From Rhodospirillales bacterium (lineage in GTDB: Bacteria > Pseudomonadota > Alphaproteobacteria > Rhodospirillales > Casp-alpha2), in NCBI GenBank assembly GCA_021775275.1, contig JAJFIE010000164.1:1-11090 (forward strand): 11,090 nt of DNA, given 5' to 3'. A model generated the notes under the pieces. That model made no database searches. It saw only the letters and a program-made list of their open reading frames with translations, and was not told the origin of the DNA. Shown here in pieces: positions 1 through 9,417 of this stretch. The translations under genes were made by a program, and so were the position numbers. Positions within the stretch are counted from its first letter, which is position 1. The number at the start of each line of letters is the position of its first letter.

Positions 1-905
1 ATGCAGCCGGGCATGCAGGCATGGGAGATATCGCCGCCGCGCTCCTTGTTCTGCTCGCGGATGAAGTCTCCGCCCATTTTCAGGACTTCGTCTTCCGATT
101 CTGTCAGGCGGCCCGCCGTGAAGTTCCTCACCGGCAGGCCGCCGATGTGGTTGGTCAGGTCGGCGACCAGCGCCGTTCCCGTGCTGCTCATATTCTGAAC
201 CGCGACGGACTCACCCAGTTGTCTGCCGTAGTCCTTGATGGCGCTCATGACGCCCCGGCGATCATGCAGGGGGGGCATTTTCAGCTTGTCGACGACAATG
301 GCCTTGACCTTTTTGTGGCCCATGACGGCGCCAACGCCGCCCCGCGCCGCCAGCCGCGACGGGCGGTTGTCGTTGTCGCTGATGGAAATGCCGGCCATCA
401 GGCCCTGGTATTCACCGACCGGCCCGCACAGCGCGATACTAACCTTTTTCCCGTATTTTTCATGCAGCAGTGCAGCAGTTTCCGTGGTTCCCTTGCCCAT
501 ATAGGGGGATGCGTCGTTAAACGTAATGTCACCTTCTTTGGGAATATGAATAACGACCCAGTCATCCGAGCAGCCATTCAGCGTAAATCCGGCAATTTCA
601 AGCTGACCCAGCGCAAACGCAAAGGTGCCGCCTGCGTTGGCTTCCTTGATGCCGCCTGTCAGAGGGCTTTTGCAGCCGACGCTCAGGCGGTTGGCGTTGG
701 AAAAATTGGTTCCGGCAAATGGCCCGGCGGAAAAGATCAACGGGTTGTCGGCAGACAGTGGATCAACCGTGGCGACGCCCATGTCCAGCAGGGTGCGGGC
801 AATAAAATGCCGCCCTGCGCTGGCCAGGGCTTCACCGGCCATTTCGTCGGTGTCAATGGCCTGAGCGGCCAAATTGATGTGCAGATATTTACGCGTGGTG
901 GTCAT
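1..905 (-). CDS. Aldehyde:ferredoxin oxidoreductase family protein, N-terminal part (runs off left edge)
   Basis: Translating the minus strand from the ATG at 905-903 gives 301 open residues up to the window edge; the gene is cut by the window, not visibly broken. The protein starts MTTTRKYLHINL and carries landmarks of the AOR N-terminal domain: NPLIFSAGPFAGTNFSNANR (about residues 54-73), KSPLTGG (79-85), EANAGGTFAFALG (88-100) and ARGGVGAVMGHKKVKAIVV (187-205). The last residues are HACMPGC, the first two cysteines of the iron-sulfur motif. Family members hold a tungsto- or molybdo-bispterin and a [4Fe-4S] cluster and oxidise aldehydes or related substrates with ferredoxin; complete proteins are around 600 residues, so about half is missing. 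It lies downstream of ridA-like and EthD-like genes on the same strand, 115 bp after the latter. No strong ribosome binding site is visible before this ATG, so the start is likely but not proven. Substrate and metal are unknown. Confidence 0.93.
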   Translation of the reverse strand, partial: MTTTRKYLHINLAAQAIDTDEMAGEALASAGRHFIARTLLDMGVATVDPLSADNPLIFSAGPFAGTNFSNANRLSVGCKSPLTGGIKEANAGGTFAFALGQLEIAGFTLNGCSDDWVVIHIPKEGDITFNDASPYMGKGTTETAALLHEKYGKKVSIALCGPVGEYQGLMAGISISDNDNRPSRLAARGGVGAVMGHKKVKAIVVDKLKMPPLHDRRGVMSAIKDYGRQLGESVAVQNMSSTGTALVADLTNHIGGLPVRNFTAGRLTESEDEVLKMGGDFIREQNKERGGDISHACMPGC

Positions 906-1020
906 GGCGGATTTGCTCAATCTATGCGGTCTTGTCCGGGGACGGTTGGGTAGCACATAGGTAGGCGTATCTCCATGTTTTTCAAGATCACGGGATCGGT
1001 CCGCATTAAGTGGCATGGCT

Positions 1021-1356
1021 TCATTCCCTCACGGCAATATCAATGACTTCATACAACACGTGGCGGATGTCACCATGGAACATGGGGGCAAAGTTGCTCA
1101 GATCGTCACGGGCGGTATATCTGACTTCGGACTCCAGGGCATTATCCAGATCATCACGTGTCTTGAATCCAAGTTCGAACGTCAACAGATAGGGCGGCTC
1201 TGCGTCGTTCCAGCGAACGCCCTTCAGATAACGCAGAGAAACAAGGCCGGGATATTTTGCCACCAGAGGCATATGAATATTCTCGATATGCTCATCAAAG
1301 GCGGTGCGTTTGTCATCCGGCACGGAGCCTAAGTAATGGGCGCACAATACAAACAT
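1021..1356 (-). CDS. EthD-like / dimeric alpha-beta barrel small protein
   Basis: The 111-residue product begins MFVLCAHYLGSVPDDKRTAF and continues with DEHIENIHMPLVAKYPGL, the pattern of EthD and related ferredoxin-like alpha/beta-barrel proteins: a first beta strand, then a helix with a conserved His before PL and PGL, then a strand carrying YLLTFELGF. The length is typical for a single such domain, which usually dimerises. Members act as small accessory proteins or enzymes in catabolic clusters; the exact role is usually unknown. The start is supported by GGGAA about 6 bases upstream. The ridA-like stop lies only 18 bp before the start, so the two are almost certainly co-transcribed and probably continue into the AOR gene. 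No transmembrane segment or signal peptide is seen. Confidence 0.75.
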   Translation of the reverse strand: MFVLCAHYLGSVPDDKRTAFDEHIENIHMPLVAKYPGLVSLRYLKGVRWNDAEPPYLLTFELGFKTRDDLDNALESEVRYTARDDLSNFAPMFHGDIRHVLYEVIDIAVRE

Positions 1357-1374
1357 TTATTTCCCGACTTTCGT

Positions 1375-1848
1375 TCAATTGGCCTCGATTTCGAAAACAC
1401 CGTCCAATTCCACAGGTACGCCAAGCGGAAGAGAACTGACGCCAACACCGACGCGGGTGTGCTTTCCCGAATCGCCAAAAATATCGGCCATCATATCTGA
1501 TGCCGCATTCATCACGCGCGGATGATCCAGGAAATCCGGGGTGCTGTTAAAGAACGCGTTGAGGCGAACAACCTGCCTGACCCGGTCGAGGTCTCCGCCA
1601 CAGGCCGCTTTGACCTGGGACAGGACGTTGCGCGCACATAATCTGGTCGCGGCTTCACCATCTTCGATGCTGATATCGCCGCCGAGGCGTCCGGTATATT
1701 TAACTTTGCCGTCTTCCAGTGTGACTTGTCCGGCTACGACAATCAGGTTCCCGGTCACCACATATGGCAGATAACTTGCGACCGGCACCGGCGGTACCGG
1801 GATGGTAATTCCGAGTTCGGCAAGGCGTGCGTCAATTTTTCCAGCCAT
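1375..1848 (-). CDS. RidA/YjgF/UK114 family protein
   Basis: This 157-residue protein belongs to the YjgF/YER057c/UK114 superfamily. Visible marks are VVAGQVTLEDGKVKYTGRLG (about 37-56), ARNVLSQVKAACGGDLDRV (72-90), and a C-terminal segment with HTRVGVGVSSLPLGVPVELD (130-149) in which R132 lines up with the substrate-binding arginine of RidA. It is longer than classic RidA (about 130 residues) and begins with an extra helix, MAGKIDARLAELGI, as in a subgroup of the superfamily whose substrates are mostly unknown. Classic RidA hydrolyses reactive enamine/imine intermediates released by PLP enzymes; other members work in heterocycle catabolism. The ATG has AGGAG (CTCCT at 1855-1859 on the plus strand) with 6-base spacing, so the start is firm. 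It is the first gene of the apparent ridA-ethD-AOR unit. Confidence 0.88.
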   Translation of the reverse strand: MAGKIDARLAELGITIPVPPVPVASYLPYVVTGNLIVVAGQVTLEDGKVKYTGRLGGDISIEDGEAATRLCARNVLSQVKAACGGDLDRVRQVVRLNAFFNSTPDFLDHPRVMNAASDMMADIFGDSGKHTRVGVGVSSLPLGVPVELDGVFEIEAN

Positions 1849-1979
1849 CGTATTCTCCTGAAAATTGGTTCATGGCGAACCAGCAGTTTCACTTCAGGTG
1901 AATATTTGAAGGAAAATCGATCAATTACACAAATTCAAAAATAGAATATATTTTTGAAGAATACTAATAAAACGGTGAA
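1849..1979. promoter_or_regulatory. AT-rich gap between lysR and the ridA-like gene with candidate operator dyads
   Basis: This 131-bp gap lies after the lysR stop and before the ridA-like gene and is clearly richer in A+T than the genes around it. It holds a perfect 10-bp inverted repeat with 5-bp spacer (TTCAAAAATA 1934-1943, TATTTTTGAA 1949-1958) and a smaller dyad TTCAC/GTGAA (1888-1892, 1898-1902). The sequence AAATTCAAAAATA at 1931-1943 recurs in inverse orientation at 2938-2950 in the lysR upstream region. I could not pick a convincing -35/-10 pair, so the transcription start is open. Reading as the promoter/operator of the ridA-ethD-AOR unit is inference. Confidence 0.5.
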
Positions 1980-2894
1980 TCATTCTATGAACTTAGGTGT
2001 CTTGCCGCGCAAGGCTTCCCATACCCGGCGTGCGCCGGGCGATAGTGGCTCATTACGTCTGCGGATGAGGCACAGTTTCCGTTTCACGACCGGGTGAGCC
2101 AAGGGCAGGAAAGCCAGATCAGAATTGGATGTCCCCGGCCTGGCGAGCTCTGGCAGGACCGTAATGCCAAGACCGACCCGAACCATTTCCAGCAATGTCA
2201 CCATGACGAGTACTTCACCAGCCGTCCTGCCGAGGAAATTTTCGAGCTCCGGGACCCCTTTCAACGCTACAGGTATGCCTGTATCCGATGCCATGGTAAA
2301 CACTCGTTCCGGATCGACGTCGTTCCACGATATGGGCGCACCCATTTTTGTCAGGGGATCATCGGTTCGGCAAACCACGCCGAAGCGATCCTGAGTCAGG
2401 GGGACATATTCAAGTTCCGGGTACTCGCCCCACCTGTTGGCGATACCGAAATCAACTTCGTTCTCGCGAACCTGGCGATGCAGTCCCCGTGCGTTGTCAT
2501 CGCGGAGTACGATGCGGATGTCATCATGGGTTTCGCCGATGTGCGCGATAACATCTGGCAGCAAACGAATAGCCACCGACGGCAAGACAGCAATGCGGAC
2601 TGTTCCGCCCAGCTGTGACGCGGACAAACGCATGGCGGCGATCATGCGATCGAATTCGTCAATGACATGTCGGGCGCTACTCAGGAATTTTTCACCATCG
2701 GCTGTGATCTGGACCTGCCGGGTCGTCCGGTTGAGCAGTCTCACTCCCAGGTCCTCTTCAAGCTGGCGTATGGTCACCGTCATGGATGATTGCGATAGCA
2801 GCAATTCTTCTGCGGCCCGGGAAAAGTTGCCGGTTTCAGCCACGGCGATGAACACCCGTAAATGGCGCAGGTTGACCGGTGATTTTTTAGTCAC
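1980..2894 (-). CDS. LysR-type transcriptional regulator
   Basis: The 304-residue product has the standard LysR layout and length. Residues about 8-67 form the winged helix-turn-helix: NLRHLRVFIAVAETGNFSRA, AAEELLLSQSSMTVTIRQLE and LGVRLLNRTTRQVQITADGE. A linker helix follows, then the effector-binding domain beginning near residue 92 (GGTVRIAVLPSVAIRLLPDV) with LGITVLPELA near residue 248. LysR regulators bind as tetramers, usually upstream of a divergent target gene, and respond to a small-molecule inducer. The start is a GTG with GAGGTGA at 2899-2905. It is divergent from the PreA-like gene (125-bp gap) and on the same strand as the ridA-like gene, so both are natural targets. The effector cannot be inferred. 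Confidence 0.95.
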   Translation of the reverse strand: MTKKSPVNLRHLRVFIAVAETGNFSRAAEELLLSQSSMTVTIRQLEEDLGVRLLNRTTRQVQITADGEKFLSSARHVIDEFDRMIAAMRLSASQLGGTVRIAVLPSVAIRLLPDVIAHIGETHDDIRIVLRDDNARGLHRQVRENEVDFGIANRWGEYPELEYVPLTQDRFGVVCRTDDPLTKMGAPISWNDVDPERVFTMASDTGIPVALKGVPELENFLGRTAGEVLVMVTLLEMVRVGLGITVLPELARPGTSNSDLAFLPLAHPVVKRKLCLIRRRNEPLSPGARRVWEALRGKTPKFIE

Positions 2895-2905
2895 GAAATC
2901 ACCTC

Positions 2906-2931
2906 ATTATTGATGAATTTATAGCAATAAT
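2906..2931. repeat. Inverted repeat ATTATTG-N12-CAATAAT, candidate LysR operator
   Basis: ATTATTG (2906-2912) and CAATAAT (2925-2931) are perfect reverse complements separated by 12 bp. The dyad lies directly upstream of the lysR ribosome binding site in the divergent lysR/PreA-like gap. Size and position fit a LysR-type operator, which typically has an interrupted dyad, but the consensus for this regulator is unknown. TGAATTTA occurs at 2914-2921 inside the dyad and again at 2944-2951, exactly 30 bp later. Confidence 0.45.
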
Positions 2932-2955
2932 ATCATTTATTTTTGAATTTAACAA
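2927..2955 (-). promoter_or_regulatory. Candidate sigma-70 promoter of lysR
   Basis: On the minus strand TTGTTA (2950-2955) and TATTAT (2927-2932) are separated by exactly 17 bp, matching 4 of 6 and 5 of 6 consensus positions. The -10 box overlaps the right arm of the 2906-2931 dyad and the spacer contains the 13-bp shared motif, which fits autorepression by the LysR protein. The region is AT-rich, so chance matches are possible. Confidence 0.45.
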
Positions 2956-3019
2956 ATTGCGAAAATTCGTGTCACATGTCTTGTAGAGTCATTCCAGGAG
3001 TACTGAGGGAGATGTTTTA

Positions 3020-4255
3020 ATGGCTGATATGGGAATCGAATTTTCGGGCATTCATTTGAAAAACCCGATCATTGTGGCCTCGGCTGAACCGAGCAACAGC
3101 GTGGAAAACATCAAGCAATGCATCGATTTCGGCGCCGGAGCGGTCATCACCAAGACCATCGGCGACATTCCCGGCATGCAGAAACTGACCCAGAATTCGA
3201 AGTACGCCATCCTCAATGATCAGGGCCGTATTATCAAAGGCAAGGTGCCGCGTTCCTTTGTTTTCTATTCCCGCTCCGGATACATCAGCGAACAGGCCGA
3301 GGACTGGATTTCTATCCTGAAGGAGACTCAGGTCTATGCCGAAGAACATGGTTCGGCCATTATCGCCAACATTGCGTCGGGCACCTTGGAGGGTTGGATA
3401 GAACTCGCAAAAATGTGCGAAGGCTGCGGCGTCCCCATGCTCGAGGTCAATTACCAGTGTCCTCATCCCGCAGGCATGGGCGATGATGCCGACGGTATCT
3501 GGATCGCCCAGGATCCGGGTGTCGCCGCCGAGGTAACGCGGCGGATCGTCGAAGCAGTTGATATCCCGGTCATGGTTAAATTGTCGCCGGAAACAAACCG
3601 CCTTACCGAAGTTGCAAGAAGTGTCATTGATGCCGGGGCAGCCAGCGTGGCCGTCAATTCCCGTTTCGTCGGTTTTGCTGTCGACATTGAAAAGGCCGAG
3701 CCGTACATCGGTGGTCCAGCCGGTGTGGGAGGGCCGTGGGTCAAGTACATCACCCAGCGCTGGGTCAATGAAATCTATAGTAAAACCGGTTGTCAGATTT
3801 CTGGTTCCAACGGCATCTTTGACTGGCGCGACGCCATTGAATTCATCATGAGCGGGGCGCGTGTCATGCAGGTTGGCTCCGTTCTGATGCTGAAGGGCAT
3901 CGAATGGCTACCCAAGGTCATCAGTGGTATGGAGAAGTTTCTCGATGATCATGGCTATCCAGACGTGGAATCAATTCATGGAATTGCGTCAAAAAAAGCA
4001 CTCATGACTCCGGCTGAAATGTTCGCCATGGAACCACTTTACTGTGAGATCGATAGCGACAAGTGCCAGTTTCCGAAGTGCAACATTTGCATCCGCATGT
4101 GTTTTTATGACTCGCTGCATTTCGGCGAACAGAACGTTCTGACAACGCCTGATACATGCATCGGATGCGAGCTATGCAGCAACGTCTGTCCGTTTGATGC
4201 GATTTCCATGCAACCGAAATCACAATTGCAAACGCCTGCATTTGCTGCTGGTTGA
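3020..4255 (+). CDS. Dihydroorotate dehydrogenase / PreA-like flavoprotein with C-terminal iron-sulfur domain
   Basis: The 411-residue protein combines a DHOD-type FMN barrel (about 1-310) with a ferredoxin-like tail. Barrel marks are KNPIIVASAEPSNS (14-27), ITKTIGDIPG (43-52), EVNYQCPHPAGMG (142-154), PVMVKLSPETN (183-193) and the FMN-phosphate region SGSNGIFDWRDAIEF (261-275) with GARVMQVGS (279-287). The tail has C349-x4-C354-x2-C357-x3-C361 and C380-x2-C383-x2-C386-x3-C390-P, fit for two [4Fe-4S] clusters. It most resembles the PreA subunit of dihydropyrimidine dehydrogenase, but no PreT partner gene is nearby, and the position matching the catalytic Cys671 of pig dihydropyrimidine dehydrogenase seems to be Ile162, so pyrimidine reduction should not be assumed. 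The ATG is preceded by GAGGGAG about 8 bases upstream. It is divergent from lysR and probably regulated by it. Function: an FMN reductase or dehydrogenase linked to ferredoxin, substrate unknown. Confidence 0.88.
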   Translation: MADMGIEFSGIHLKNPIIVASAEPSNSVENIKQCIDFGAGAVITKTIGDIPGMQKLTQNSKYAILNDQGRIIKGKVPRSFVFYSRSGYISEQAEDWISILKETQVYAEEHGSAIIANIASGTLEGWIELAKMCEGCGVPMLEVNYQCPHPAGMGDDADGIWIAQDPGVAAEVTRRIVEAVDIPVMVKLSPETNRLTEVARSVIDAGAASVAVNSRFVGFAVDIEKAEPYIGGPAGVGGPWVKYITQRWVNEIYSKTGCQISGSNGIFDWRDAIEFIMSGARVMQVGSVLMLKGIEWLPKVISGMEKFLDDHGYPDVESIHGIASKKALMTPAEMFAMEPLYCEIDSDKCQFPKCNICIRMCFYDSLHFGEQNVLTTPDTCIGCELCSNVCPFDAISMQPKSQLQTPAFAAG

Positions 4256-4570
4256 GACAGAATTCAATTGATATCGATAATCCGTATGCTCAGGTTGACA
4301 TCGATATTCATACATAACCATCATGGCTGGCCTATAATATCTTGCGCGGTACGCTTCGATCCTGACCATTGGGAAAACGCCTGATGACGGCGCTGGCAGT
4401 GTATTTTTCCGAGGTTAATCCCGATATTGAATCCAACGTGCGTGTGTACTACATTGCGTTTGAAATCAGCTATTTAAGCGCTGCAAAACTATACCGTCAG
4501 ATATAATGGCGGACGTTGCTTTTGAGGAACAGGGGTACCCTATCCGAGCTTTGAAAAAGGTATCACGTTC
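4256..4570. other. 315-bp stretch without a convincing gene
   Basis: The stretch after the PreA-like gene holds an inverted repeat ATATCGAT (4271-4278) / ATCGATAT (4300-4307), which is not terminator-like because it is AT-rich and lacks a T run. An exact TATAAT lies at 4333-4338 and another at 4502-4507, neither with a good -35 at 17 bp; a lone TTGACA at 4295-4300 is 32 bp before the first. A 40-codon frame (ATG at 4384, stop ending 4506) exists, but no family is recognised and its ribosome binding site is poor. The TATAAT at 4502 would place a start about 55-60 bp before the following small gene and is its most likely promoter element. Confidence 0.4.
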
Positions 4571-4792
4571 ATGCAGAAATATGAGGTTGGCATCTACAAC
4601 CAGACAGTCCGCGACCTTCTCGCCGAAGATGAGCACCATCGCCATCTGGACGACAAGTGGGCGGATGTTTATTATTTCGAGGTTAAGGCAGCCTCAGCCG
4701 ATGCTGCGCGTGCTAAAATGGCATCATCCCATCCGGCTAGCCAAGGGTACGTTATCGAAAGCGTGGAAGAGGTCGTTGATAACTTCGATTAA
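4571..4792 (+). CDS. Small acidic uncharacterised protein (73 aa)
   Basis: The product, starting MQKYEVGIYNQTVRDLLAED, is acidic, has no transmembrane segment and appears to be a compact alpha/beta domain: a strand (KYEVGIYN), a helix, a second strand (ADVYYFEVKA), a helix (SADAARAKMASS) and a final strand (GYVIESVEEV). The EVKAASADAARAKM stretch resembles the strand-helix pattern of small alpha/beta proteins that handle modified side chains or act as adaptors, but I recognise no named family. Codon use looks genuine and AAGG lies about 10 bases before the ATG. It stands alone, convergent with the efflux gene. A 127-codon plus-strand frame starting at 4506 overlaps it, but that product is basic, Ser/Arg-rich and typical of a shadow frame. 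Confidence 0.65.
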   Translation: MQKYEVGIYNQTVRDLLAEDEHHRHLDDKWADVYYFEVKAASADAARAKMASSHPASQGYVIESVEEVVDNFD

Positions 4793-4849
4793 GGCGCTGT
4801 CAGTCGCCACATGTGCCCGTACACAGCTTTCATCGCTCCGGTTTCTTGT

Positions 4850-4867
4850 ATTAATCGGCATTAATCG
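4850..4867 (+). repeat. Short direct repeat ATTAATCG x2
   Basis: ATTAATCG occurs at 4850-4857 and 4860-4867, a 10-bp period (one helical turn), in the 101-bp gap between the two convergent genes. No T-run terminator was seen there. Its meaning is unknown and it may be chance. Confidence 0.35.
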
Positions 4868-4893
4868 AACGCCGGTATCGATTTGCTGATTAT

Positions 4894-6102
4894 TCACACC
4901 TGTCTGGGGGATCGGAGTCCAAAATAACCGACGATACCGATACCAGTGAACCCGGCGATGGTTAACGTCAGCGGCCAGGCCGAGCCATCATGGAAGCTGC
5001 CCACCAACAAACCAGCCAGACTTGCCGCCGCCAGTTGGAGAGAACCAACGAGGCCTGCTGCTGCACCATTGGACCCGTTTCCGGTGCCATCGAGCAGGCA
5101 CGTCGGGCCGCTCGCCAGGATTAATCCAATTCCGAACGATAAAAATGTCATGCCGGACAGAATGGCCGCGAGGCTCTCCTTGTACGCCAACAGAGGTGCG
5201 ACCAGAACCACGCTGCCAAGGAAGGCAAAGAAAAGCGCCATCTGCACCAGGCGATCCGCGGCTATCCGGGCGGCCATGCGTGTGACCGTCAGGCCGCCCA
5301 GAATGAACGCGATAACCAGAACACCATAATAGAGTCCGTAATCCTGTGTTGCGATACCGAAGCGGTCTATGAGCAAAAACGGACCATCGGTGACAAAGGC
5401 GAAAAAGGAGCCAAACATCATGGCGAGGGGAAGCAAATACCGAAGGTAGGCGGGCCGTCTGAGAAGAGTGAGATAGCTGTGGGCGATTTTCCCGGGGTGG
5501 ATCGCGCCGTGGTCCCTTTTCCCGGTTTCGGGCAAAAACCGGTACACCAAAAGAAAGGCTACAGCGGCCAACACGGCAAGCAACACAAAATTCACGCGCC
5601 ACCCTGCCAGCACATGGATATACCCCCCGACAACCGGACCAATGGCCGGCGTGACCCCAACGGCCATCCCATAGTAACCCATGATCCGTACGGCGTTATT
5701 TCTATCGAACAGATCACGAATGATCAAAATAACCACCACCGAGGGGACGCTGGCAAACAGGCCCTGAACAACCCGGCCAACCAGAAGACCACCAATCGTC
5801 AGGGCGGTAGCGCAGATCAGGCTGGCGACGAGGAAACCTGTCATGCCGATCAGGAGTAACCGGCGTCGACCGAAGCGGTCGGCCAGGGGACCGTGGAACA
5901 ACTGGGCAATGGCATAGGCGGCGAGATTGAGGCTGACGGTCAGTTGTACGATTTCGATATCGCTGGCCAACAGGCGCGGCAGATGAGGCAGGCTCGGCGT
6001 ATAGAGATCGGTCGAGAGAATGCTGACGCTGGTGCATGCCACCAGCACGGCGGGGACAACCCAGGCTGTGTGCTTCGAAGGCTCATAGCTCGAACGCGGC
6101 AC
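4894..6102 (-). CDS. Bcr/CflA-family MFS drug efflux transporter
   Basis: This is a 12-helix major facilitator of the drug:H+ antiporter-1 type. Visible marks are STDLYTPSLPHLP in helix 1 (compare the STDMYLPALP-type signature of Bcr/CflA), motif A GPLADRFGRRR between helices 2 and 3, GRVVQGLF in helix 4, and motif C GVTPAIGPVVGG in helix 5. Such proteins expel bicyclomycin, chloramphenicol, florfenicol or other compounds from the inner membrane; the substrate cannot be told. I use the GTG at 6102-6100 because CTCCT at 6109-6113 gives AGGAG with 6-base spacing on the coding strand, and the 402-residue product matches the family. The frame stays open to a TTG at 6183, but the added 27 residues look non-native and no ribosome binding site is there. 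It is monocistronic and convergent with the 73-residue gene. Confidence 0.92.
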   Translation of the reverse strand: MPRSSYEPSKHTAWVVPAVLVACTSVSILSTDLYTPSLPHLPRLLASDIEIVQLTVSLNLAAYAIAQLFHGPLADRFGRRRLLLIGMTGFLVASLICATALTIGGLLVGRVVQGLFASVPSVVVILIIRDLFDRNNAVRIMGYYGMAVGVTPAIGPVVGGYIHVLAGWRVNFVLLAVLAAVAFLLVYRFLPETGKRDHGAIHPGKIAHSYLTLLRRPAYLRYLLPLAMMFGSFFAFVTDGPFLLIDRFGIATQDYGLYYGVLVIAFILGGLTVTRMAARIAADRLVQMALFFAFLGSVVLVAPLLAYKESLAAILSGMTFLSFGIGLILASGPTCLLDGTGNGSNGAAAGLVGSLQLAAASLAGLLVGSFHDGSAWPLTLTIAGFTGIGIVGYFGLRSPRQV

Positions 6103-6256
6103 ATTCGTCTCCTGACCAGAATTTTCTGAATGACGAAAAACGAGCGCAGAGACTGACGGTTTTCCGCTATAGTTGCAACTCAAGAATAAGTGTTATTCGC
6201 GCAAAAGTAGCGAGTCTGCAGCACCACTCATATCCGGAACTATCGCAGTATTCAGA

Positions 6257-6524: not shown

Positions 6525-8375
6525 TCAGCCTACACGTTTCATGCCGCGCGCGTTGCGCGGGTCGTCCTCGTCAAACAATTCCATGAGATTTTGCATCATG
6601 GTGCCGCCCAGTTCCTCGGCATCGATGAGGGTAACGGCGCGCCGGTAATAACGCGTTACGTCATGGCCAATGCCGATAGCGGTCAACTCGATAGATGACC
6701 GGGTTTCAATCCACTCAATCACATCGCGCAGGTGTTTTTCCAGATAGTTGCCCGGGTTGGCGGAAAGGGTCGCGTCATCCACCGGTGCGCCATCGGAAAT
6801 CACCATGAGGATCCGGCGCTGTTCCGGTCGACCGAGCAGCCGGTTGTGCGCCCATAACAGGGCTTCGCCATCAATGTTTTCCTTGAGCAGGCCTTCGCGC
6901 AACATGAGACCCAGATTACTTCGCGCGCGCCGCCATGGCGTGTCCGCGGATTTATAGATGATATGGCGCAGATCGTTCAGGCGCCCCGGGTTCTTGGGCT
7001 TGCCATCGCTGACCCATTTTTCCCGTGATGATCCCCCCTTCCAGGACCGCGTGGTGAAGCCGAGGACTTCCACTTTCACGCCGCAGCGTTCCAGCGTTCG
7101 CGCCAGTATATCGGCGCTCATGGCCGCCACGGTGATGGGGCGTCCTCGCATGGAGCCCGAATTGTCGATGAGCAGGGTGACAATGGTGTCGCGGAAGTCG
7201 GTCTCGGATTCCTGCTTGAAGGACAGTGGGTGCATGGGGTCAATGACCACGCGCGACAGGCGTCCGGCGTCGAGGATGCCTTCCTCCAGATCGAAATGCC
7301 AGGAACGCTGCTGTTTGGCCATGAGGTTGCGCTGTAACCGGTTGGCCAGTTTGGAAACCATGCCTTGCAGGTGGGATAGCTGTTGGTCGAGTTGGTGGCG
7401 AAGCCGCGCCAGTTCTTCCGGGTCGCACAGGGCTTCCGCACCGATCACTTCATCGAAGTGCATGGTGAAAGGGTGATAGGCGGTCGATGCCGATTGATCG
7501 TCAGCCCAGTTTCGCTGCCATTGGGTTGGTCCGGCCGGGTCTTCTTCACCTTCACCGGGCATCATCTCGTCTTCGCCGGAGTCCGCCATGCCTTCGGCCT
7601 CCTCGTCGGCTTCACCCATGGCGCTTTCTGTCGAGGCAGCACTTTCGGCTTCAGACTCACCGCTATCGCTGTCCATATCGTCGCCGCCGCTGGGATCTTC
7701 ATCAGCCTCGTCATCGGCATTGTCGTCAGAGTCCATTTCGTCAGTGGAATCGACGAGTTCCATGTCCTGAAGCATATGCATGACCCGATCGCCAAAGATG
7801 CGCTGATCGCTCATAATATCTTTCAGATCATCGAGCTGATGGCCTATCTTGTCATCCAGCCAGTCTTTCCACAGCGCGCACAGCTCCTTGCCGGCATCCG
7901 GAATGGCCTGGCCACCGCATTTTTCGCGGATCAGCAACCCCAGAACATCACCCAGCATTTCGTCGCGGCGCTGGTCGACACTGGCGTATCCCTTGGCCCG
8001 ACAGCGCTCATCCGTCAGGACGGCCAGATTGTCGGCAACGCCTCTCAGATGCTGGGCGCCAAGGCTCTCACAACGCGCCTGCTCGACCGCTTCAAACACG
8101 GATCGCGCCTCGGGCGAGGCGGGCATGCGTTTGCGGTGGAGGGCTTCGTCGTGGTGGTGAAGCCGCATGGCGAGGGCATCGGACATACCACGATAACGGG
8201 CGATGCCGTCGGCGGTGATCTGGTGCGGTGGAACCGGCAGGTGCGCCGTGTCGCCGGATACGCCAGCCGACCCTTGAGCAAACGAGACCTCGGTCTCGGG
8301 TTTGCCCGACAATGCCTTCAGCGTCGCTGCGGTGGTCCGTTTCAACAGTTCCGACGGTTGTTCCGGCTGGCTCAC
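6525..8375 (-). CDS. cobT: Cobaltochelatase subunit CobT
   Basis: The 616-residue protein has the full CobT layout: an N-terminal helical domain with [14 protein letters not shown] (11-24) and the region up to about 205, a long acidic low-complexity linker rich in Asp, Glu, Ser and Met (about 208-280), and a C-terminal von Willebrand-type A domain (about 395-600) with the metal-site motif [13 protein letters not shown] (401-413; D404, S406, S408) and VISDGAP (525-531). With CobS it forms the AAA+ chaperone that powers CobN to insert Co2+ into hydrogenobyrinic acid a,c-diamide in the aerobic cobalamin pathway. CobN is not in the window. The GTG start lies 37 bp after the cobS stop, so the two are an operon. 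The length is close to known CobT proteins (about 600-630). Confidence 0.97.
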
Positions 8376-8412
8376 GATCTCTACACCTTCGCCGATATCA
8401 GTGGTTCTGCCA

Positions 8413-9417
8413 CTAGCTCAATGCGATATTGCCCACGGATTCCGGCAATTCCTCGCCGAAACAGCGCTGATAGTATTCGGCGATCAACGGACGTTCGTGT
8501 TCATCACATTTGTTGAGGAATGTAACACGGAAGGCAAAGCCCCGATCACTGAAAATCTCAGCGTTCTCCGCCCACGTGATCACTGTTCGGGGCGACATGA
8601 CCGTGGAGATATCGCCGGACATGAAACCGTTGCGGGTCAAATTTGCCAGCTCGACCATGTCGCGGATATCCTTGCGGCCCTTGTCCGTATCGAAATCAGG
8701 AACCTTGGATAGAACAATGTTTTCCTCGTCCTCGCTGGAGAGATAGTTCAGCGTGGTGACGATATTCCAGCGGTCCATCTGGCCCTGGTTGATCTGCTGG
8801 GTGCCGTGATACAGGCCCGTGGTGTCGCCCAAGCCAACGGTGTTGGTGGTGGAAAACAGACGGAAGTACGGATGCGGGCGCATCACGCGGTTTTGATCCA
8901 GCAGGGTCAACTTGCCCTCAACCTCGAGAATACGCTGGATCACAAACATCACGTCTGGCCGACCGGCATCGTATTCATCAAATACCAGCGCCGTCGGATG
9001 CTGCAACGCCCATGGCAGGATACCTTCGCGGAACTCGGTTACCTGTTTGCCGTCACGCAAGACAATGGCGTCCTTGCCGACCAGATCGATACGGCTGATG
9101 TGGCTATCCAGATTAATGCGGATACATGGCCAGTTCAGGCGTGCCGCCACCTGTTCAATATGAGTGGATTTACCCGTGCCGTGGTAGCCCTGGACCATGA
9201 CACGGCGGTTGTGGCCGAACCCGGCGAGGATGGCCATGGTCGTGTCATGGTCAAAACGGTAGGCCGGATCAATGTCGGGTACATGGCCTTCCGCTTCGCT
9301 GAAAGCGGGAACCTCCATGTCGCTGTCGAGACCAAAAGTCTGGCGAACGGAAATCTTGATATCCGGTGCATCAAACGGAAATGCCTGTTCGGCGTCGGGT
9401 GTGGTCTGTGCGGTCAT
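8413..9417 (-). CDS. cobS: Cobaltochelatase subunit CobS (AAA+ ATPase)
   Basis: The 334-residue protein is a MoxR-like AAA+ ATPase. It shows Walker [10 protein letters not shown] (77-85; K83), Walker B LVFDEYD (144-150; D147, E148), a sensor-1 region LFSTTNT (187-193; N192), a candidate arginine finger in MDRW (R216) and the sensor-2 motif SPRTVITW (275-282; R277). The N-terminal segment [18 protein letters not shown] is typical of CobS. It forms hexameric rings with CobT and hydrolyses ATP during cobalt insertion by CobN. The ATG is preceded by AGG only about 5 bases upstream, inside a small palindrome (9421-9432). It is the first gene of cobS-cobT and lies 120 bp downstream of the J-protein gene on the same strand. 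Confidence 0.97.

Follow-up and report, generated by a model that had tools for sequence, protein, structure and literature searches.

Gene content of the locus

The stretch of DNA analysed here, called the window, is an entire contig of 11,090 nt (C73; JAJFIE010000164.1) of a Rhodospirillales bacterium, from an assembly (GCA_021775275.1) of 2.92 Mb in 537 contigs with a completeness given as 74%. Its left part carries five genes that an earlier note had read as a LysR-controlled redox module. On the minus strand, leftwards in this order, lie genes for a LysR-type regulator (1980..2894, assigned by family match), a RidA/YjgF-like protein of 157 aa (1375..1848), an EthD-like protein of 111 aa (1021..1356) and an enzyme of the aldehyde:ferredoxin oxidoreductase (AOR) family (3..905). 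A gap of 125 bases separates lysR from a divergent gene for a PreA-like protein (3020..4255, plus strand), in which a flavin mononucleotide (FMN) barrel is followed by two C-terminal [4Fe-4S] motifs. All five genes were confirmed with the order and strands given in the note. The AOR gene likely starts at 905 and runs off the contig, which begins inside it, so that the N-terminal ~300 codons are present and the C-terminal half and anything beyond are not visible.

A LysR-RidA-EthD-PreA neighbourhood recurs in other genomes

Scanning genome contigs with the window PreA-like protein yielded nine loci, labelled in their records as Rhodobacteraceae or Defluviimonas (seven), Rhodospirillales (one) and Gammaproteobacteria (one). 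Two more came from the order to which the genome of locus L012 belongs, where matches occurred in 3/41 genomes, one of them that of L012 itself. With the window counted, and with L014 and L071 omitted as identical in sequence to L013, the set comprises 12 loci, in which gene presence was scored by tblastn at 1e-15. PreA was found in 12/12 loci, LysR and RidA in 11/12 each, EthD in 10/12 and AOR in 3/12 (the window, L012 and L084). Contig ends truncate L006, L084 and the window on the relevant side, and the RidA and EthD of L006 and the LysR of L084 would fall past those ends; in the 19-kb stretch of L085, EthD was not found by tblastn. Because LysR, RidA and EthD occur in 10-11 of the 12 loci and AOR in only three, the conserved core is LysR-RidA-EthD-PreA, with AOR as an optional member, and since this neighbourhood recurs in other genomes its gene order is beyond chance. 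The earlier note had joined all five genes in one pathway and proposed co-occurrence in related genomes as the check. The set without AOR is conserved and the set with AOR is not, so the single-pathway idea holds for the four core genes and is open for AOR.

Genes of electron transfer recur beside this core. FdxA is present in 6/12 loci (L005, L007-L011), a ferredoxin reductase (FNR) also in 6/12 (L006-L011), and one or both stand near PreA in 7/12, which fits the idea in the note that electrons may be passed by ferredoxin. A POR-type 2-oxoacid:ferredoxin oxidoreductase was found in 1/12 loci (L012).

The distribution of the PreA-like subfamily is patchy. At 1e-60 it was matched in 3/48 genomes of the window's own family, namely the window's own, G020 at 88% and G003 at only 50% identity. 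The family of L007's genome gave matches in 5/248 genomes: L007's own, G444 at 77% and three relatives at 49-50%. Among the homologue clusters, EthD and PreA twice have the same longest-contig size (34,322 for P0243/P0029 and 9,202 for P0249/P0031) and AOR and PreA once (7,141 for P0165/P0043); judged by equal longest-contig size only, these pairs probably lie on the same contigs.

The PreA-like protein resembles dihydropyrimidine dehydrogenase

The PreA-like protein matched DHO_dh at 98.9 bits (cut-off 27) and gave Fer4-type matches, and its C-terminal part holds the cluster motifs CX4CX2CX3C and CX2CX2CX3C. This is the layout of the superfamily of dihydropyrimidine dehydrogenase (DPD), a DHO_dh barrel followed by 2x[4Fe-4S], as in bacterial PreA and mammalian DPD (PDB 1h7w family). 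Against NF006183, the DPD equivalog, the protein scored 210.6 bits, below the cut-off of 335, and it is 26-29% identical to two presumed alphaproteobacterial PreA proteins. In a plasmid search the best listed matches were about 30% identical and mostly annotated preA. The best fold matches of its AlphaFold2 model (mean predicted local distance difference test, pLDDT, 72.8, moderate) were DPD chains, followed by dihydroorotate dehydrogenases. Sequence and modelled fold both point to DPD as the nearest relative. No PreT-like gene adjoins 3020-4255, the neighbours being lysR, an unmatched 127-aa open reading frame (ORF) and a major facilitator superfamily (MFS) gene.

Residue conservation was counted in the best 120 of 5,963 homologue matches, down to 53% identity. 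K45, N144 and K187 align with DPD K574, N668 and K709 and are kept in 118/120, 120/120 and 120/120, respectively. C147, which aligns with DPD C671, is kept in 102/120 and is otherwise H (10), N (4), T (2), S (1) or Y (1); the eight cluster cysteines are all present in 119/119 homologues with letters at these positions. The protein differs from DPD in its first cluster motif, CX4CX2CX3C, and at the positions of N609, E611, N736 and T737, which we take to be the pyrimidine-binding residues of DPD. N609, E611 and T737 are not kept: the N609-E611 stretch is replaced by a segment holding Y83-S84-R85-S86-G87, and R215 falls at T737. The position of N736 is Ser in the window protein, and Ser in 104/120 and Asn in 16/120 homologues. 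Both the YSRSG segment and R215 are kept in 120/120. On these sequence features the PreA-like proteins are a DPD-like subfamily of their own, marked by the invariant R85 and R215. Because the pyrimidine residues of DPD are replaced and the two arginines are kept throughout, we infer that the substrate carries a carboxylate.

The same enzyme might instead run oxidatively, dehydrogenating a ring amine or acid that is saturated wholly or in part, with RidA removing the imine, ferredoxin passing electrons on to FNR and AOR, if involved, working reductively from acid to aldehyde. Dihydroorotate dehydrogenases, which have the same barrel fold and come directly behind DPD in the ranking of fold matches, run oxidatively; in principle AOR and FNR can each work in either direction, and RidA would suit the imine product of an oxidative route equally. 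However, a dicluster C-terminal domain with FdxA and FNR as neighbours is what one would expect of a DPD-type enzyme that works reductively, and the nearest fold is that of DPD itself. We consider the oxidative direction unlikely.

RidA-like and EthD-like proteins

The RidA-like protein belongs to the PF14588 branch (93.6 bits, cut-off 35) and also matched Ribonuc_L-PSP (47.9 bits, cut-off 27.3). It matches the proteins of this branch (3d01; the Rid protein PA0814, 9bk9; 9bkb) over nearly its whole length, and the conserved active-site Arg of the RidA family is present, the Arg of HTRVGVGVSSLP aligning with that of 9bk9, 9bkb and 2dyy. Unlike RidA proper, it scored 33 bits against TIGR00004, under the cut-off of 106.25. 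We propose that it acts as a deaminase/hydrolase on an enamine or imine. Its best matches in a plasmid search (about 54%) come from plasmids of Shinella and Aminobacter, where the surrounding genes differ from those of the window (L099, HZN7 pShin-03; L100, pAA03; around 8001-8468). Genes annotated there as dipicolinate synthase subunit DpsA, octopine/nopaline dehydrogenase family, 2-hydroxymuconate tautomerase and isochorismatase family stand near this closest plasmid relative, and the setting is perhaps another ring-degradation route.

The EthD-like protein passed TIGR02118 (45.5 bits, cut-off 30.5) and narrowly missed Pfam EthD (21.5 against 22). Its confident model (pLDDT 95.4) has the alpha+beta barrel of the EthD fold group, with the EthD family protein 2ftr as the best fold match (template modelling (TM) score 0.78, 28-29% identity). 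4-Methylmuconolactone methylisomerase (3hfk_A; TM 0.66, 18% identity) belongs to the same fold group, and the window protein forms a sequence subgroup of its own relative to both. Because of this common fold group, the model makes isomerase- or cyclase-like chemistry a likelier role than electron transfer. At 1e-8, matches occur in 8/385 alphaproteobacterial genomes; in the seven other than the window's, identity does not exceed 36%. A protein search gave at least 21 matches; it required shared 5-residue words and therefore under-counts, as the absence from its list of the ~54% relatives in L007-L011 illustrates, and it is no measure of rarity.

AOR is an optional neighbour of the core

The window AOR matched Pfam AFOR_N at 184.8 bits (cut-off 29.8) and, because the contig begins within the gene, AFOR_C over its first 77 positions only (22.2 bits against 27). 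The full-length relative in L012 passes both domains, which are shared with tungsten aldehyde:ferredoxin oxidoreductase (1aor); the window holds half the gene. Its sequence stops at the second Cys of a motif that reads CX3CX3C in full-length relatives. This first Cys motif is CX3CX3C in 135/136 AOR sequences scanned (the exception, L084, is incomplete) and CX2CX3C in 1aor, so CX3CX3C is a possible signature of this proteobacterial branch. The Glu, His and distal Cys positions of the L012 AOR align with those of 1aor, whose aligned Glu and His are presumably the active-site residues. The L012 AOR thus has all four cluster cysteines together with this Glu and His, a full set that the half gene of the window is too short to show.

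In a search for AOR at 1e-3, three of the genomes that carry the nine loci gave any match: L012's (100%), L011's (60%, on a separate contig from the PreA locus) and L013's, with relatives of 30-32% only. Thus 7/9 related genomes lack this AOR subfamily in the sequence searched. Conversely, the subfamily occurs at 1e-60 in 16/385 alphaproteobacterial genomes, 15 besides the window's, and the PreA-like protein in 2/385, the window's and G417 (52% identical). None of the 15 other AOR-bearing genomes has a PreA-like match of this subfamily, the 52% relative in G417 lying on another contig. The 16 stretches around these other AORs (L054-L069, some short) gave no match to RidA, EthD, LysR or PreA at 1e-5. 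In the six of them subjected to a Pfam scan, the neighbours were a tRNA synthetase, AMP-binding enzymes, a TRAP transporter, a sugar kinase, an amidohydrolase and a CO-dehydrogenase-type flavoprotein. The claim that AOR is a fixed member of the set is not borne out.

In a tree built on the window's 297 columns, with the short L084 sequence left out and rows of >=30% gaps dropped, the window AOR groups with alphaproteobacterial AORs of other settings and P0206 (support 0.968; inner node 0.38), apart from the group of the L012 AOR. Since the tree separates the two, AOR probably joined the locus separately in alpha- and gammaproteobacteria, each time behind EthD. AOR could on the other hand be a bystander, a general aldehyde enzyme acting for example on formaldehyde from N-demethylation, with LysR-RidA-EthD-PreA as the whole functional unit. 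Its presence in only 3/12 PreA loci, its occurrence in 15 other genomes in stretches devoid of the core genes, and the grouping of the window AOR with those other AORs rather than with that of L012 all speak for this, and PMC5023235 lists a tungsten AOR among the C1 formaldehyde genes of Methyloversatilis. Yet AOR occupies the same-strand position directly behind EthD in two distinct lineages (the window; L012/L084), a hint that it was recruited more than once to serve the same end. A bystander role seems to us somewhat doubtful.

A few further AOR settings were noted. In L058 (524-10727) and L061 (8435-18668), both of one genus, OpuAC/permease relatives lie some 6-8 kb from an AOR of the same subfamily, and in L059 (4510-10661) POR relatives lie about 1.5 kb from one; these are faint echoes of the PreA-bearing loci. 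The window's own genome carries a further AOR fragment, cut by a contig end (C315:6932-7471, L073). We rejected it as the missing half of the window AOR, since over the aligned part it is 31% identical to the L012 AOR, to which the window AOR is 66% identical. The genome probably has a second, distant AOR.

Electron donors, transporter and a related operon

AOR is absent from all seven loci with FdxA and/or FNR and present in 3/5 of the others, an exclusion that would have a one-sided probability of about 0.045 if the loci were independent, which they are not. Because the loci with FdxA and/or FNR carry no AOR nearby and three of the five without them do, AOR is most simply read as able to replace them in supplying reduced ferredoxin, with an aldehyde being removed at the same time. 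L011 combines an FdxA/FNR locus with an AOR on a different contig of the same genome.

An OpuAC-type binding protein was scored in 6/12 loci (L007-L011, L013), with a ProX/OpuAC betaine-type ATP-binding cassette (ABC) transporter lying behind EthD in the place of AOR. Elsewhere in the window's genome (74% complete), only matches of 25-27% to a transporter like that of L013 were found. About 1.5 kb from the L084 locus, with one other gene between, is an enzyme of the DAO/GCV_T N-methyl-processing type, and the L012 locus includes a short MTTB-domain gene. In L095-L097 (G717, G501, G718), a PreA relative of ~49% identity with the same two arginines forms an operon with a cupin, an amidase, DUF2848, FdxA and FNR, and a xanthine dehydrogenase (XDH)-type molybdenum hydroxylase lies beside it on the opposite strand (families were scanned in L096 only). 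The operon differs from the window module in having the hydroxylase and amidase and no RidA or EthD match. It resembles what we take to be the reductive 6-hydroxynicotinate route and appears to be a separate pathway that reduces an N-heterocycle. This gene make-up, expected for heterocycle breakdown, favours an N-heterocycle reading for the PreA relatives. Together, the transporter, FdxA/FNR, the operon of the ~50% PreA relative and the DAO/GCV_T and MTTB genes make reductive degradation the favoured function of the module, the substrate being a carboxylated and perhaps N-methylated N-heterocycle. The nitrogen heterocycle suggested in the earlier note would thus be a reasonable substrate class.

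A betaine-type transporter in 6/12 loci, the N-methyl-processing enzyme near L084 and the short MTTB-domain gene of L012 would also suit the catabolic operon for homarine (N-methylpicolinate), presumably homABCDER, that was reported in 2026. That operon is reportedly widespread in the family of L007's genome, and the patchiness of the PreA subfamily there (2/248 genomes, one of them L007's own, or 5/248 with the ~50% relatives) does not suit such a spread. Identity of the module with the homarine operon is very improbable. The operon is cited in PMC13390433.

A LysR-box-like motif before preA and, in most relatives tested, before ridA

Seven lysR/preA intergenic regions could be aligned, with invariant columns around TTTTGnATTTAACAAATCAA. 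This block holds a T-N11-A, partly palindromic form, TTGAATTTnTCAA, which is typical of LysR boxes, and in the window the site in the divergent promoter is TTGAATTTAACAA (2943..2955, plus strand). A candidate second site before ridA, TTGAATTTGTGTA (1926..1938, minus strand), is weak in the window and stronger in relatives. Eight ridA gaps and nine further upstream regions were tested with a matrix trained without the tested locus, related loci remaining in the training set and p values being uncorrected; p<=0.03 was obtained in 6/8 and 5/9 of them, respectively. In L005 and L007-L011, the lysR-ridA gap holds a core like TTGAATTTnTCAA that points at ridA (p 0.001 to 0.028). The motif was also found upstream of lysR in L006 (p 0.001) and L005 (p 0.005; L012, p 0.20), upstream of preA in L006 (p 0.022; L005, p 0.28) and in the ridA/preA gap of L012 (p 0.024; L084, p 0.066); in L085 it gave p 0.017 for preA and p 0.085 for ridA. 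These sites support joint control of the preA and ridA units in the relatives and are only suggestive of it in the window. LysR control, as claimed in the note, accordingly stands as a motif present in both units in 6/8 loci and lacks significance in the window itself. The same data would fit the conserved block being either a LysR site or a conserved core promoter.

A proposed reductive ring-opening pathway

Our tentative reading, to which we give somewhat less than an even chance, is that the locus encodes a catabolic module under LysR control. Its core would consist of a DPD/PreA-like flavoprotein that depends on ferredoxin, a RidA-like deaminase/hydrolase and an EthD-like protein of the isomerase type. 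This reading is based on the gene content and its conservation, the fold class, the conserved residues and a promoter motif common to most relatives tested, from which we infer a substrate, direction, step order and electron donors as follows. A carboxylated N-heterocycle, possibly N-methylated and betaine-type, would enter the cell, in relatives through the ProX/OpuAC ABC transporter. The PreA-like enzyme would reduce a ring double bond with electrons passing through its two [4Fe-4S] clusters to FMN, RidA would hydrolyse the resulting enamine or imine so that the ring opens to an aldehyde or ketone, and EthD would rearrange an intermediate. In the window lineage and some gammaproteobacteria, AOR may then oxidise the released aldehyde and return the electrons to ferredoxin, a supply that NADPH, FNR and FdxA would provide in the Rhodobacteraceae loci. 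In its strongest form this would be a self-powered ring opening, in which AOR oxidises the pathway's own aldehyde, ferredoxin feeds the PreA-like enzyme and NADPH is not needed, with the NADPH-FNR-FdxA chain serving the sister lineages; we regard this form as quite unlikely.

Several observations weigh against the proposed module. The ring could be oxidised instead of reduced, and C147, the expected proton donor, is replaced in 18/120 of the best homologues. The PreA model has pLDDT below 50 in the cluster domain and in the R85/R215 loops and therefore gives no geometry for them. The exclusion between AOR and FdxA/FNR (0/7 against 3/5) comes from a small number of related loci, of which some are truncated at contig ends, and neither the 15-kb stretch of L013, the closest relative, nor the stretch of L085 contains AOR, FNR or FdxA. 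The amidase and hydroxylase of the L095-L097 operon are not in the window. As for joint control, the ridA site of the window has a visible core and p 0.15, about the fourth-best score in the whole window, and no motif was found in the lysR-ridA gap of L013 (p 0.51).

If the proposed module is real, it would offer a testable genetic handle on bacterial use of a carboxylated N-heterocycle by reduction rather than oxygenation, mark out R85/R215 as the specificity signature of a distinct subfamily of DPD-like reductases, and provide an example of a single ring reductase served by interchangeable electron donors, FNR-FdxA or AOR. We found no paper describing this gene set by title or abstract in the literature searched, which leaves out most subscription journals.

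Flanking genes and other observations

To the right of preA in the window, the unmatched 127-aa ORF is followed by the MFS gene, of the Bcr/CflA type (4894-6183), which we rejected as a member of the module because it had no match in the 11 loci L005-L015. Further right, the family scan identified a BolA gene and a ribbon-helix-helix gene; by eye, we take genes right of the MFS gene to be cobT, cobS and a DnaJ-type gene. In L009, the PreA module is flanked by a 3,046-base, 100% identical inverted repeat (2919-5964 and 12723-15768) that carries OpuAC ABC transporter genes and is either a recent duplication or an assembly effect. In the genome of L006, the opposite strand upstream of preA encodes a molybdopterin enzyme, which has a pyrogallol-hydroxytransferase-like domain, together with a Fer4 partner (L098:8594-12444).

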